Below are positions 46,639 through 51,714 of a stretch of 60,579 nt of DNA, piece by piece. The number at the start of each line of letters is the position of its first letter. Position 1 is the first letter of the stretch. The notes beneath the pieces are model-generated. The model had not been told where the DNA came from. It did no database searches and saw only the letters and a list, made by a program, of their open reading frames with translations. Made by a program: the position numbers and the translations under genes. Origin of the DNA: Planctomycetota bacterium (GTDB lineage Bacteria; Planctomycetota; Planctomycetia; Planctomycetales; Planctomycetaceae); the NCBI GenBank assembly GCA_022600195.1, contig JAHZKX010000009.1, forward strand, positions 1 to 60,579. The letters are read 5' to 3'.

Positions 46639-46771
46639 TCGCTGTATGACTTATGAGAGAGGTAGTCATTCGAATGTATCTCATGATGTCACTAAGTCCT
46701 GTGTTTCTGAAGCAATTCAAAGGCTCAGCCTCAACAGTAAAACGTAAAGTAATAATTTTCAGGAGAATTTG

Positions 46772-47659
46772 ATGAAGTTGACTCGATTTTTAATGGTGCC
46801 CGTAATGCTGGCAGCAATCGCCTTAACTGGTCCGATGCTCGATGCAAAAGAAGCAAAGCAAGCGCCAGTGGCCCTGGATGGTAATTGTGCTGTCTGTCTG
46901 GTGAAAAGCAAAAAAATTGTCAAAGGCTCGCCCAGGCATGCAGTAGTTTTTGATGGCCGAACTTATTTATTTCCTTCCGAGGAAGTCAAAAAAAGTTTTG
47001 CAGCCAGTCCAGAAAAATATGTTCCTGCATTGAATGGAGATTGTACGATCTGCTTTGCACATCATGATGGCGTACGCAATCCTGGCAAGATTGAGCACGT
47101 GAGTTTCTATCAGGGGCGCGCTTTCTTGTTTCCGAATGATTCTCTCAAAGCAATGTTTGAACAGTCTCCTCAGAAATATGCGGATGTCGATTTAGCTCAT
47201 GGCGGCAAGTGTGCAGTCTGTAAAATCGATGGCGGGAAAGAGATCGCGGGCAAACCGGAATTTACAGCAATTTTTCAGGGTTTGCGTTACCAGTTTCCCA
47301 ACCAGAGTGTACTGCAGAAGTTCCAGGCGAATCCTGCGAAATATACAGGGCAGAAAAAAGAAGGACTGAAAACGAGCGCTAATACTGCTACCGAGACTAA
47401 GCTGGTATCCGTGAAAGGGACCACTGGTTGCGCTGCCTGTGAATATGGGGTTCACCCCAAACAGGATCCTGACGAACTGGGGTTAGCTGTAAAAAGCAAT
47501 GATGGCTTCATCTATGTCGTTGAAGGTGCTCATGACTCGCATCCCGATCTCTATAAGAGCCGCTTCCAAAGTTTGAAAGTCAGCGTTATGGGCAAAGAAA
47601 TTGCCCGTAAAGGAAAAATTGTCTGGCTCCAACCGAAATCGATAGAAACAGTTCAGTGA
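46772..47659 (+). CDS. Secreted protein with three YHS-like CxxC repeats
   Basis: This 295-residue protein has a signal peptide (LTRFLMVPVMLAAIALTGPM). Three repeats of about 53 residues follow, each with CxxC, a beta pair and a motif F-x-G-x-x-Y/F-x-F-P then F-x-x-x-P-x-K-Y. Repeat Cys pairs are C39/C42, C91/C94 and C147/C150. A fourth CxxC (C220/C223, GCAACEYGVHPK) starts a different C-terminal domain. The repeats resemble the YHS domain, which is associated with metal binding and copper handling. The start is ATG 46772 with AGGAGA. Convergent to the thioredoxin-YHS gene; the stops are separated by the shared hairpin at 47715. Confidence 0.82.
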   Translation: MKLTRFLMVPVMLAAIALTGPMLDAKEAKQAPVALDGNCAVCLVKSKKIVKGSPRHAVVFDGRTYLFPSEEVKKSFAASPEKYVPALNGDCTICFAHHDGVRNPGKIEHVSFYQGRAFLFPNDSLKAMFEQSPQKYADVDLAHGGKCAVCKIDGGKEIAGKPEFTAIFQGLRYQFPNQSVLQKFQANPAKYTGQKKEGLKTSANTATETKLVSVKGTTGCAACEYGVHPKQDPDELGLAVKSNDGFIYVVEGAHDSHPDLYKSRFQSLKVSVMGKEIARKGKIVWLQPKSIETVQ

Positions 47660-47777: not shown

Positions 47778-48596
47778 TTAATTTTTTGGTTGCAGAATAT
47801 ACATCGAGGGATTGGACGAAAACCGATCTCGATTTTCTGCAGAAGTGAAAAAGACCAGTTTCTCACGATAAACGCCACCTGATTGAGGGTTACCCTCAAC
47901 AGCCTGTTTCTTTTCCATCCGAGACACGCGGCAGTTCCCTCCAAAGGCAGGCCAGTAGCGCTCCGGGTCAGAGTCAAATTGCTTTTTATGTCCCGCTGAA
48001 GAAAAGCAGACTTTGCGTCCATTGTATTCTGAATGAAATTTCGATTCACCTTTCACAAGTAGTTGATCATCCAGCATACTGACCAGACAAACTCCTTTGA
48101 ATGCAAATTCGGGAACAACCTGCTTTCGACTGATTTTTTGAATCGCTGGTCTGGAACGTGCTGGAATTGGTTGCTCGTGTTTTACAACACAAATCTTATT
48201 CAAATGTCCTTGCATCTCATGAGCGGGGACATAGCCAGAGATCTTCTTCACGATTTTCAGTTGCGGTGAGATAATCACAGTCATCGGTAATCCGGGCACA
48301 CCAATGGCTTCTACCAATTCTGTACTCTCATCTGCGTCCACTTGAATCGGAACAAAACAGGAGTTGATATGCTTGACCACTTTGGCGTCCTTGAACGTTT
48401 CTCGCTCCATTTTGTGACAAAACCCGCACCAGGAAGCACCAATTTGAATGAGCATGGCTTTATCTTCTGCTCTAGCCCGTTTTGCGGCTTGTTGTAAGTT
48501 GGTTTGCCATCGTATTTCCTCACCCTGAACAGAGTTGGATAGTGATGGTATTGATATCAAACAGATTGAAAAAAGGAGAAGGTATAGTGGTCTCAT
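47778..48596 (-). CDS. Secreted thioredoxin-fold protein with two YHS-like repeats
   Basis: This 272-residue protein has a signal peptide (LYLLLFSICLISIPSLSNSV). A thioredoxin-like domain follows with ASWCGFCHKMERETFKD (Cys57, Cys60) and the cis-Pro region GVPGLPMTVII. The C-terminal third carries two YHS-like units: KGVCLVSMLDDQLLVKG, CFSSAGHKKQFDSDPERYWP, and NCRVSRMEKK with FFTSAENRDRFSSNPSMY. The YHS part is built like that of the convergent gene, but with single Cys residues in place of CxxC. A periplasmic oxidoreductase for a metal-binding partner is the likely role. RBS GAGGGA precedes the ATG. Confidence 0.85.
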   Translation of the reverse strand: MRPLYLLLFSICLISIPSLSNSVQGEEIRWQTNLQQAAKRARAEDKAMLIQIGASWCGFCHKMERETFKDAKVVKHINSCFVPIQVDADESTELVEAIGVPGLPMTVIISPQLKIVKKISGYVPAHEMQGHLNKICVVKHEQPIPARSRPAIQKISRKQVVPEFAFKGVCLVSMLDDQLLVKGESKFHSEYNGRKVCFSSAGHKKQFDSDPERYWPAFGGNCRVSRMEKKQAVEGNPQSGGVYREKLVFFTSAENRDRFSSNPSMYILQPKN

Positions 48597-49001: not shown

Positions 49002-49017
49002 TGTGAGTTAACGCACA
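49002..49017. promoter_or_regulatory. CRP/FNR-like operator 1 upstream of the precursor
   Basis: TGTGA-GTTAAC-GCACA, nine of ten arm positions palindromic; N6 spacing as in CRP sites. It lies 160 bp (centre to centre) upstream of operator 2. Confidence 0.45.
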
Positions 49018-49161: not shown

Positions 49162-49177
49162 TGTGAGATAACTCACA
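49162..49177. promoter_or_regulatory. CRP/FNR-like operator 2, perfect arms
   Basis: TGTGA-GATAAC-TCACA has perfect inverted arms. TTTAGT at 49197-49202 is a possible -10, which puts the site near -41 of the inferred transcription start. Confidence 0.55.
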
Positions 49178-49258: not shown

Positions 49259-49768
49259 ATGAAACGTCCTGAAATGAATCGCCGTGATTTTAATCGACTG
49301 ACATTTGCAGCTTTCGGCGGAATGGTAGCTGGCTCCACCATGTCAGGTTGTCAGTCTAAAACGCCACCCGCTCCAGCAACTCCTCCAGCAGGCGAATCAG
49401 AGGCTGGCAGTACTACGAAGGATGACCACGATCATGTAGAAGGAGACAAAGATGTCAGTCTCTTGATGTCCGAACCACATGTCTGTCGTGGTTTAAACAC
49501 CTGTAAAGGAAAGCATGGTGGCGTTGAAAATGATTGCGCCGGTTTGGGTGCTTGCGCTTCAGTCGCAGCACACACCTGTTCTGGTGCCAATGAGTGTAAA
49601 GGCCAGGGTGGCTGTGGTACCAATCCCGGCATGAATTCCTGTAAGGGCAAAGGGGGCTGTAGTGTGCCTTTAATGGAAGACGCCTGGAAACTGGCCCGCG
49701 TAGAATTTGAAAAATCAATGGAAAAAGCAGGTAAAAAAGTAGGTCCCGCACCTGCCGCTAAAAAATAA
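49259..49768 (+). CDS. Cys-rich Tat-lipoprotein-type RiPP precursor candidate (bufferin-like)
   Basis: This 169-residue protein starts MKRPEMNRRDFNRLTFAAFG, a Tat signal, and ends the signal at a lipobox (MSGC, Cys31). A Pro/Ala/Ser linker and an acidic/His stretch (DDHDHVEGD) follow. The core (residues 74-134) has nine Cys in a repeated pattern: C76-x5-C82, C93-x5-C99, C107-x5-C113-x5-C119, C128-x5-C134, with units such as CRGLNTCKGK, CAGLGACA, CSGANECKGQGGC and CKGKGGC. These resemble the EGKCG-type motifs of MNIO substrates. GAGGA precedes the ATG. A terminator, then the DUF692 and DUF2063 genes, follow. The modified product is probably a metal-binding peptide (inference). An unmodified Cys-rich metal-binding lipoprotein is the alternative. 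Confidence 0.75.
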   Translation: MKRPEMNRRDFNRLTFAAFGGMVAGSTMSGCQSKTPPAPATPPAGESEAGSTTKDDHDHVEGDKDVSLLMSEPHVCRGLNTCKGKHGGVENDCAGLGACASVAAHTCSGANECKGQGGCGTNPGMNSCKGKGGCSVPLMEDAWKLARVEFEKSMEKAGKKVGPAPAAKK

Positions 49769-49794
49769 GAGATTCAACTTGTAGCAATAAAGTC

Positions 49795-49836
49795 CAGGCT
49801 CCTTTATCAACCAGATTGATGAGGAGCCTGCTTTTT
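49795..49836 (+). terminator. Terminator/attenuator between precursor and modification genes
   Basis: CAGGCTCCT pairs with AGGAGCCTG, with an inner ATCAA/TTGAT pair, followed by CTTTTTG. It would let the precursor mRNA be more abundant than the enzymes' mRNA. Confidence 0.85.
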
Positions 49837-49909
49837 GTTAGGAGTCGGTATGACAGGATCGCTTCAATTTTTTTAGAAGTCGTTCTCGATCAGAGGGGAA
49901 TAGCAACCT

Positions 49910-50839
49910 ATGTTAAAACCACGTCTTGGCCATGAAAATCTGGGTTTGGGGGTGGGCCTGCGAACCGTGCACTTTCATCATATTCTGGAACACCAGCCAG
50001 AGGTTGACTGGTTTGAAATCATCTCAGAAAACTTCATGGACTCTGCTGGCAGACCCAGACATGTTCTGGAGCAGATCGCTGACCGATATCCCATAGTGAT
50101 GCATGGTGTTTCGCTTTCAATTGGAAGTACAGACCCACTCAATCGCGAGTATCTGAAAAAATTGAAAACACTGGCAGAGTCAATCAACGCGCGTTGGATT
50201 TCCGATCACGTCTGCTGGACTGGTGTCGCGGGACGCAATACACATGATCTCCTGCCAATTCCCTATAATGAAAATACATTGACCCATCTGGTAAAACGCA
50301 TTCGCATCGTTCAGGATATTCTGGAGCGTCCTCTCATTCTGGAAAACCCAAGCAGTTATCTGGAATTTCAAGATAGTACCATGTCAGAATCTGAATTTGT
50401 CTGTCGCATGGCGGAAGAAGCTGATTGTGGCTTACTGCTGGATGTCAATAATGTCTATGTCTCCAGCGTGAATCATGAGTTCGATCCCGTGAAATACATT
50501 GAAATGATCCCCGCGGAACGTGTGGTGCAATGTCATCTGGCAGGCCACACGAACTGTGGCACTCACTTAATTGATACACATAACGGGCAGGTCATTGATC
50601 CTGTCTGGAACCTGTTTCAATTAATGCATCAGCGTACAGAAGGCGTCGCCACATTACTTGAATGGGATGCCGATATTCCTCCCTTTCCTGTGGTGCATGA
50701 AGAAGTACTCAAAGCAAGAAAATATATGGATGAGAATTTACCTGTTCGGGATCAAGCGAGTAAGGAAAAGACGGTCACAAGTCCTTCCTCAACGGCAATT
50801 CCTCATCCGGCCTCGTTTATTGTAGCAGAAGTCGAATGA
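49910..50839 (+). CDS. DUF692 multinuclear iron-dependent oxidase (MNIO), BufB-like
   Basis: This 309-residue protein is a TIM-barrel DUF692/MNIO enzyme. The expected metal and active-site residues are present: Glu40 (FEIISENF), His65 (VMHGVSLSIGS), Asp99 and His100 (SDHVCW), Glu145 (LENPSSY), Asp178 with Asn180 (LLLDVNNVYV), His209 and His213 (CHLAGH), Asp222 and His224 (DTHNG) and Glu251 (LLEWDADIPPF). The family oxidises Cys residues of peptide substrates, for example to thiooxazole or oxazolone-thioamide groups. The start has AGAGGGGA upstream. The stop overlaps the next start by ATGA, so the DUF2063 partner is translationally coupled. Confidence 0.95.
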   Translation: MLKPRLGHENLGLGVGLRTVHFHHILEHQPEVDWFEIISENFMDSAGRPRHVLEQIADRYPIVMHGVSLSIGSTDPLNREYLKKLKTLAESINARWISDHVCWTGVAGRNTHDLLPIPYNENTLTHLVKRIRIVQDILERPLILENPSSYLEFQDSTMSESEFVCRMAEEADCGLLLDVNNVYVSSVNHEFDPVKYIEMIPAERVVQCHLAGHTNCGTHLIDTHNGQVIDPVWNLFQLMHQRTEGVATLLEWDADIPPFPVVHEEVLKARKYMDENLPVRDQASKEKTVTSPSSTAIPHPASFIVAEVE

Positions 50840-51714
50840 GCAACGAATCGCGTAATCTGGATCAACTCCAACGCTGGATGCAAACCGTCATCAGTTGGCC
50901 CGGAGGAGTCGAAGCTGGCATCGACTCCGAAGCGGCACAATCTGAGATCCCACTGGAAAGTAGCGAATTGGAAACGATCGTCACTGCCTCCAGCAGACAA
51001 ACAAGTCTGGAAAGAATGGGAATCTATGCGAACGCATATTATGCCCGCCTGCTGGAATGTTTAAGCGAGGAATATTCGGCGCTCGTGAGTGCAATGGGGA
51101 AAACGGCCTTTGGGGCCTTTAGCATGGAATATCTTCAGGAATATCACCCCACCAGTTACACGCTCTGTGATTTGGGGGCGCACTTTCCTCAGTTTTTAAC
51201 AGAACACAAGCCTCCCGCTGAGGAGAATGAACTCAACTGGACAGACTTTCTGATCGAGGTTGCTACATTGGAACGTGTTTATAGTGAAGTCTTTGATGGT
51301 CCCGGCATTGAACAGGAAACACTTCTGACCGCGGAAGTATTAAACTCCATTCAACCGGAAGAATGGCCTGAAGTAACTCTCAAAATGGCACCCTGTTTCA
51401 GACTGATGCAGTTTCAATTTCCCGTTCATGAATTTATTTCCCACGTGAGAAAAGGAAACTCACCACAGATTCCGGAACAGCAGCTGACCTGCCTGGCGAT
51501 CACACGTCGAAATTACGTCGTGCGTCGAGAAGTGGTGTCTCAGGCGGAATATCTCCTGCTTTCAAAGCTGCAGCAGGGCTTGAACGTCGGAGACGCCATC
51601 ACGTGCCTCGCAGAATCAGATCTCATGGAACCAGAGGAGTTAGGCACCAAGCTCCATAAATGGTTTAAACACTGGACGACAGCAGCGTTTTTCATTGATG
51701 TGTCTAAACAGTGA
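50836..51714 (+). CDS. DUF2063 MNIO partner protein, BufC-like
   Basis: This 292-residue protein has the DUF2063 N-terminal helical signature SLERMGIYANAYYARLLECL followed by SEEYSALVSAMGKTAFGAFS. It is the expected partner that recruits the precursor to the MNIO enzyme. Its start overlaps the enzyme's stop (ATGA), a sign of fixed stoichiometry. No further gene of the cluster, such as a DoxX-type BufD, follows within 400 bp. Confidence 0.9.
   Translation: MSNESRNLDQLQRWMQTVISWPGGVEAGIDSEAAQSEIPLESSELETIVTASSRQTSLERMGIYANAYYARLLECLSEEYSALVSAMGKTAFGAFSMEYLQEYHPTSYTLCDLGAHFPQFLTEHKPPAEENELNWTDFLIEVATLERVYSEVFDGPGIEQETLLTAEVLNSIQPEEWPEVTLKMAPCFRLMQFQFPVHEFISHVRKGNSPQIPEQQLTCLAITRRNYVVRREVVSQAEYLLLSKLQQGLNVGDAITCLAESDLMEPEELGTKLHKWFKHWTTAAFFIDVSKQ

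Follow-up and report, generated by a model that had tools for sequence, protein, structure and literature searches.

A bufferin-type gene trio in a Planctomycetaceae genome, with a precursor that is probably a remodelled Buf2 bufferin of the twin-arginine route

The DNA analysed here, called the window in what follows, is a stretch of 60,579 nucleotides (contig JAHZKX010000009.1 of assembly GCA_022600195.1) from a bacterium of the Planctomycetaceae. Positions 49259 to 51714 carry three genes that we read as a bufferin-type operon, bufABC, for a ribosomally synthesized and post-translationally modified peptide (RiPP). The precursor would be a remodelled Buf2 bufferin that is exported by the twin-arginine translocation (Tat) pathway and acts as a membrane-bound metal buffer. 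We assign this reading a probability of roughly 0.7. Gene order, protein families, the anatomy of the signal, the homology with Buf2 and the linkage of precursor and enzyme genes are read directly from the sequences.

The gene trio is of the bufferin type

The trio is made of the following genes.

49259-49768, plus strand: bufA-like precursor gene, 169 amino acids
49910-50839, plus strand: bufB, MNIO (DUF692) enzyme, 309 amino acids; 359.6 bits to NF050167 (above 310), match to 3bww at 2.6e-47
50836-51714, plus strand: bufC, DUF2063 (PME-type 1) partner with an NGO1945 C-terminal domain, 292 amino acids; PF09836 at 60.0 bits, PF22106 at 27.6 bits against 27

The open reading frames (ORFs) were re-read. 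Their layout, with bufB and bufC overlapping by ATGA, was as given in the initial annotation, and the precursor gene lies directly 5′ of the MNIO and DUF2063 genes, which is the A-B-C order of Buf2/BufA2 systems. The source genome is 6.58 Mb long and 99.99% complete. The nearest named homologues of the precursor in the protein homology search are Gimesia proteins and, judged from sequence, the source organism is close to Gimesia.

BufB is the sole MNIO match in the source genome. It reaches 366.1 bits with PF05114 (cut-off 25), and its score with NF050167 places it among the BufB maturases. The motifs HGVSLS, SDHVCW, ENPSSY, DVNNVY, HLAGH, DTHNG and EWDAD start at residues 65, 98, 145, 178, 209, 222 and 251. 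All seven, which include the presumed iron-binding residues, fall within stretches aligned to 3bww, so that the expected ligand motifs are indeed present. BufC scores above the cut-off of 27.2 for DUF2063 (PF09836). The match of its C-terminal (RRE) domain to PF22106 is marginal, and the two together make it a partner of PME-type 1. BufC remains below the cut-off of the HvfC family NF050145 (58.8 of 142).

The precursor was compared with about 5.8 billion proteins. At the threshold used (E ≤ 0.001), 2292 relatives were obtained, and the precursor is therefore not a chance ORF. Homologue counts rest on the 120 matches listed out of these 2292, the window's own protein being among them. The RRxF motif is present in all 120 and RRxF together with a lipobox in 119; nine core Cys are found in 108 and the exact spacing 5-10-5-7-5-5-8-5 in 97. 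In alignment A1, made with 17 chosen homologues, the twin arginines, the lipobox Cys and the nine core Cys are invariant, and the region from residue 32 to about 70 is variable.

The precursor and the MNIO were searched for in a draw of 392 planctomycete genomes. The precursor was matched in 57 genomes and the MNIO in 110. Ten split pieces were removed from the 76 precursor places. An MNIO gene lies within 1.5 kb of 31 of the 33 strong places (30 genomes at E ≤ 1.2e-15, the window's own place counted) and is likewise linked to 25 of the 33 weaker ones. Homologues thus do not occur mostly without DUF692/DUF2063 neighbours. The MNIO score above the BufB cut-off, the DUF2063 partner and the tight linkage of precursor and MNIO together uphold the initial claim of a bufferin-type cluster.

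The precursor has the anatomy of a Tat lipoprotein

Four parts can be distinguished in the precursor.

49259-49351, plus strand: twin-arginine lipoprotein signal, residues 1-31 (NRRDFNRL ... AAFGGMVAG ... MSGC31); RRxF and lipobox in homologues, low hydropathy
49352-49477, plus strand: variable Pro/Ala/acidic tether, residues 32-73; least conserved part of alignment A1
49478-49672, plus strand: nine-Cys core, residues 74-138, with four N-x-C-[K/A]-G motifs; aligned with 12-Cys Buf2-type cores
49673-49765, plus strand: C-terminal extension with conserved W143, R147 and F150 and a predicted helix at 140-156; alignments A1 and A2, AlphaFold2 model

The protein contains ten Cys, namely C31 of the lipobox and core residues 76, 82, 93, 99, 107, 113, 119, 128 and 134. 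The core gaps are 5-10-5-7-5-5-8-5, five of the eight being x5. The Tat signal, the lipobox Cys31 and the nine, mostly C-x5-C, core Cys described earlier are confirmed. No Pfam family matched the precursor. The helix at 140-156 is the sole one predicted with confidence in the AlphaFold2 model of the unmodified chain.

By sequence, the signal combines RRxF, a weakly hydrophobic h-region and a lipobox Cys, as expected of a Tat lipoprotein. Its maximal 13-residue hydropathy is 1.4, as compared to 2.2-2.8 for signal-like N-termini encoded nearby, which were picked by eye. TatC and Lgt, the two components covered by the search, both have matches in the source genome. From the signal, we infer that the window precursor is exported via Tat.

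The core appears to derive from Buf2-type precursors

Alignment A2 sets the window core beside eight relatives. The core shows the 12-Cys pattern of Buf2 with three Cys missing: Cys 10, and also Cys 3 and 4, which fall in an eight-residue gap. Relatives L021, L032 and L168 have eleven Cys, each being devoid of one core Cys. The candidate reading of an unrelated new precursor class was rejected because the core aligns with Buf2-type proteins. The C-terminal extension, with its conserved W, R and F, is carried by the aligned precursors of the window clade and is absent from five Buf2-type rows of A2 (L036, L038, L041, L056 and L061).

Six relatives were scanned with the BufA2 family NF050166 besides the precursor. 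Two Tat-type relatives exceed the cut-off of 60: L032, with eleven Cys and no lipobox, at 60.8 bits and L061, with a lipobox, at 66.0; L041 also does so, at 67.1. L056 (57.4), L021 (51.5) and L010 (15.5) fall below it. The precursor signal is of the Tat-type RRxF form by motif and hydrophobicity prediction, in place of the Sec-type signal of Buf2/BufA2. Overall, the window precursor lies outside BufA2 by strict tests but appears, by sequence, to descend from the same stock.

The same family search matched 38 of the 392 planctomycete genomes, 11 of them above the cut-off, and the source genome was not among them. The 14 control genomes all remained without a match, although a Buf2 is reported for Caulobacter vibrioides (Antoine et al. 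2025, PMC12452194). The search therefore misses members of the family.

Proposed pathway and metal

From this anatomy, we infer the modification, the chemistry, the use of Tat, the metal and the physiology of the trio as follows. In the cytoplasm, BufC and BufB would bind to the precursor, the signal peptide being the probable point of contact. BufB would then oxidise several core Cys; 5-thiooxazoles are the probable product, and the four N-x-C-[K/A]-G motifs the most likely sites. The modified precursor would be exported by TatABC, then lipidated and cleaved at Cys31 by Lgt and lipoprotein signal peptidase. The core, attached through a flexible tether some 40 residues long, would serve as a membrane-bound buffer for thiophilic metals, copper most likely, possibly mercury or others.

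Buf1 of Caulobacter helps under copper stress, and preliminary data indicate the same for Buf2 (PMC12452194). Copper is our best guess for the window cluster because of this work, the metal being assigned by analogy with the family. A main target of mercury or arsenic is unlikely. It would agree with one relative whose genes directly follow merR in a mer/ars island, and with published MerC-bufferin fusions (PMC12452194). In genome G216, merR (TIGR02051, 154.3 bits, cut-off 150.85) and arsS (TIGR04167, 418.5 bits, cut-off 300) flank the gene of this Tat-type relative, which is devoid of a lipobox, together with the genes of its MNIO and DUF2063 partner. Beyond arsS, a MerA-like oxidoreductase gene follows (TIGR02053, 381.6 bits, below the cut-off of 454.45), along with a divergent MerT-HMA gene. 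The island occupies L063:4610-10957 (G216:C38), with merR, bufABC, arsS and the oxidoreductase gene on one strand. At this one locus, the gene context supports handling of thiophilic metals in the Tat-type branch. A mercury or arsenic context is however confined to this locus, nine neighbour proteins having been annotated from five of the ten loci with tabulated neighbours, and no mercury or arsenic gene is present among the three annotated genes beside the window cluster.

Tat-type and Sec-type signals among relatives

Relatives were collected by a scan of genome contigs. The best 80 of 401 relatives were kept, 76 of them with a readable precursor; L099, L120, L139 and L151 had no recognised precursor ORF and were left out. 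Signals were clearly Tat-type at 34 of the 76 loci, Sec-type (no RR signal found) at 40 and ambiguous at 2 (L103 and L155). L033, L053 and a few more are omitted from parts of the tree, hydrophobicity and route counts. The Tat-type loci, mostly from metagenome assemblies, belong to Acidobacteriota (19), Planctomycetota (9), Pseudomonadota (4), Actinomycetota (1) and one unranked record. Both types are linked to an MNIO gene on the same strand within 1.5 kb (31/34 Tat loci, 35/40 Sec loci). Tat-type relatives in Acidobacteriota and some Gammaproteobacteria mostly have no lipobox. Outside the window's relatives, the form combining Tat and a lipobox is a minority, since a lipobox was called by script in 7 of the 36 RR-type signals of this contig-scan set, the two ambiguous ones included.

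Some places belong both to the set of planctomycete genomes and to the contig-scan set. Route changes were counted on a quick MNIO tree of 97 rows, 95 of them labelled by route, after removal of identical MNIO rows. Five changes were found as compared to a shuffled mean of 30.3 (none of 500 shuffles as low), and at least 2 are forced by well-supported branches. The clade of the window MNIO comprises 27 rows, all Tat-type (SH-aLRT support 98). Hydrophobicity is also lower in Tat-type signals (median 1.78, n = 73) than in Sec-type ones (2.17, n = 55; p 1e-11), a gap that is overstated because the test ignores kinship, duplicate loci remain and the Sec maximum was taken over a longer stretch.

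The alternative is a Buf2-type lipoprotein exported by Sec, whose RR pair merely belongs to a basic n-region. In the published view, bufferins are exported by Sec (PMC12452194), and Sec-type signals are found in 31 of the 41 Planctomycetota Buf2 relatives of the contig-scan set. However, the occurrence of RRxF in every listed homologue and the weakly hydrophobic h-region of the precursor signal argue against this alternative, which we hold to be quite improbable.

Points that weigh against a modified Buf2-type precursor

Several observations weigh against the reading of the trio as a Tat-routed Buf2 system. The precursor scores 21.7 bits with BufA2 NF050166, short of the cut-off of 60, and its nine core Cys are neither the 6 nor the 12 of Buf2/BufA2. 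In the AlphaFold2 model of the unmodified precursor, the predicted local distance difference test (pLDDT) score is below 50 over residues 41-135, so that the core is predicted to be disordered. The initial annotation had called the peptide folded, and this part of its claim is not borne out by the model. The Tat pathway is known for folded cargo. Concerning the enzyme, Cys-Lys MNIOs are reported to have an Asp after the presumed catalytic Asp (PMC13097082), whereas BufB has Ala at this position (EWDAD), as do 28 of the 30 loci in which the motif was recognised by pattern, duplicates included. No copper gene was found among the three annotated genes flanking the window cluster. Finally, 2 of the 33 strong precursor places (G216:C27 and G220:C22) have no MNIO on their own contig; the MNIO genes of both genomes sit on different contigs. 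An unmodified metallothionein-like lipoprotein, the MNIO acting elsewhere or on some members only, would fit these two copies and the stand-alone precursors reported by Antoine et al. (PMC12452194), but it is hardly credible in view of the 31 linked places and of the single MNIO match in the window genome.

A possible second role of the signal peptide

In the two locus sets taken together, with duplicates left in, a motif, A-x-x-G-[hydrophobic]-x-[small]-[small], was recognised in the hydrophobic core of 68 of 76 Tat-type signals and of 34 of the 56 Sec-type ones. In control ORFs with hydrophobic N-termini, not filtered for being genes, it was present in 12 of 127. The comparison is partly circular because the motif was first read off these same proteins. 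Some of the Sec signals without the motif are ORFs where the script took a wrong segment. The motif is retained from phylum to phylum and also when the route changes, and shared descent contributes to this.

Since Sec- and Tat-type signals share a core motif, the signal peptide may double as a leader recognised by BufB/BufC. For Buf1, preliminary data make the signal peptide part of BufB-BufC recognition (PMC12452194). Conservation of the signal within the genus was considered as proof of a leader and rejected as too weak: residues 1-30 are 85% identical to those of orthologues, but a neighbouring lipoprotein (88%) and another exported-looking ORF (95%) are no less conserved.

Antoine et al. 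noted that some mechanism must stop the export of signal-bearing MNIO precursors before modification (PMC12452194). Redox enzyme maturation proteins act on Tat cofactor enzymes (PMC3316669), and BufC, on reading a Tat signal, would act by analogy like such a protein. One may speculate on an export checkpoint, a doubtful idea for now, in which BufC would treat the core motif of the signal as a leader and mask it while BufB oxidises the Cys and the chain becomes compact, possibly around metal; Tat would accept the precursor only afterwards. If true, the checkpoint would answer how premature export is avoided and would define a Tat-exported RiPP class across several phyla.

The Tat-routed branch is kin to Sec-routed branches whose cores and enzymes are of the same kind, which makes the question of premature export testable by signal swaps. 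The series of cores with 12, 11 and 9 Cys is a natural remodelling that should reveal the essential Cys. The system also points to a membrane-tethered metal defence in Planctomycetota.

Regulatory elements and neighbouring genes

Three further elements were recognised around bufA.

49002-49017, no strand assigned: partial upstream copy of the operator-like palindrome (TGTGAGTTAACGCACA)
49162-49177, no strand assigned: operator-like palindrome TGTGAGATAACTCACA, 16 bp, 97 bp 5′ of bufA; CRP/FNR-type layout
49795-49836, plus strand: terminator-like hairpin followed by a T run in the bufA-bufB gap; stem present in 9/9 genus genomes

The layout of the palindrome is that of CRP/FNR-family sites. TGTGAGATAACTCACA belongs to an invariant 22-bp block that is identical at -95 to -98 in 9/9 genus genomes, with diverging flanks, and occurs exactly once in the whole genome. 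The weaker copy, about 160 bp farther upstream, is also found in the eight other genus genomes with 1-3 mismatches to TGTGAG-N4-CTCACA. Upstream sites of this pattern are also present in two genomes of the same family, G152 and G299, but not in most other genera. A wider regulon did not emerge: with up to 2 mismatches, the genome scan gave 5 forward and 5 reverse sites versus 3 and 2 in the reversed control, and the other sites adjoin genes that look unrelated by eye. A copy with one mismatch lies at L084:1501-1516 (G000:C49) upstream of a gene that looks DsbD-like by eye, and could be due to chance.

In G315, a CRP/FNR-family gene (PF13545, 56.4 bits) lies directly upstream of bufA, and the exact palindrome is absent at that locus. 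This gene (L065:6145-6837) heads a bufA-bufB-bufA-bufC cluster with two precursors. An inverted repeat with the core TTTGTCA-N6-TGACAAA was seen by eye between it and bufA (L065:6850-6890).

The 71-nucleotide stretch containing the bufA-bufB hairpin folds at -31.9 kcal/mol (z -5.98). The hairpin is GC-rich and shows one two-sided pair change and one G-U change across the genus, by eye. The terminator scan did not list it, the hairpin proper (49795-49830) having been recognised by eye and by folding. It may yield more precursor than enzyme message.

Beside the cluster, the window encodes a thioredoxin-YHS protein (47778-48596, minus strand) and a YHS-domain protein (46769-47659, plus strand). 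Their orthologues lie near the buf cluster in 8 other genus genomes, as is equally true of most genes there. In G257, FGE-sulfatase/DinB and histidine-methyltransferase genes, a pair of the ergothioneine type, are directly upstream of bufA (L080:9932-12620). L150, from a metagenome assembly titled Klebsiella pneumoniae, contains a bufferin-like gene, and no MNIO was found in this locus; the organism label is probably wrong. A tblastn search of plasmids with a Buf2 relative gave no matches.

Comparison with known systems

A search for Tat or twin-arginine terms found none in the text seen of PMC12452194 or PMC12636315, and no Tat-exported MNIO substrate is described in the parts seen of these two papers or of PMC12668002, PMC13097082 and PMC12538549. 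A literature search for MNIO enzymes or bufferins together with the twin-arginine route likewise gave none among the matches listed. The initial annotation had proposed a distinct class on account of a long, lipidated, Tat-exported precursor. In the sources consulted, the Tat route is the part not found described, whereas length and lipidation are already known for Buf2, with precursors of 51-367 residues of which about 16% are predicted lipoproteins (PMC12452194). Lipidation of an MNIO product has in addition been shown for NedA (PMC12636315), and the core is of the Buf2 type. Antoine et al. first gathered precursors of less than 200 residues with a predicted Sec signal, and also Cys-containing proteins without Sec signal at any length (PMC12452194). 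Tat types may therefore sit unrecognised in their sets.

Among those sets, adjamnio-I proteins are MNIO-adjacent and come from the fraction in which no Sec signal was predicted; they have 122-293 residues and 8-21 Cys (PMC12452194, Table 2). The window precursor resembles them by size, and Tat-type precursors could in principle fall in that set. Adjamnio-I is however described with PME-type 2 partners, and the PME-type 1 DUF2063 partner of the window (60.0 bits) speaks against membership. As the two are set apart by description and not by the alignments of its Fig. S3, an overlap is possible.

NedA and DybA (PMC12636315) are alike in having a RiPP precursor with a lipobox adjoining an MNIO gene, but their cores, of the EGKCG or chryseobasin type, differ from that of the window. 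The lipoprotein mining of that study took ORFs of 50-160 amino acids, and the window precursor, with 169, is longer. The Buf_EGKCG/oxazolins (captophorins), whose copper binding is reported, share Cys-rich repeats, MNIO and DUF2063 with the window system. They differ by their EGKCG repeats and Sec signals, the window precursor being devoid of EGKCG.

The closest likeness is to Buf2/BufA2 (NF050166; Cys-Lys group), which shares the C-x5-C core, the N-x-C-K-G motifs, the MNIO and DUF2063 proteins, the A-B-C order and export, some members being predicted lipoproteins as well. In contrast to these, the window precursor has a Tat signal in place of a Sec signal, nine core Cys, a helical C-terminal extension and a long tether.

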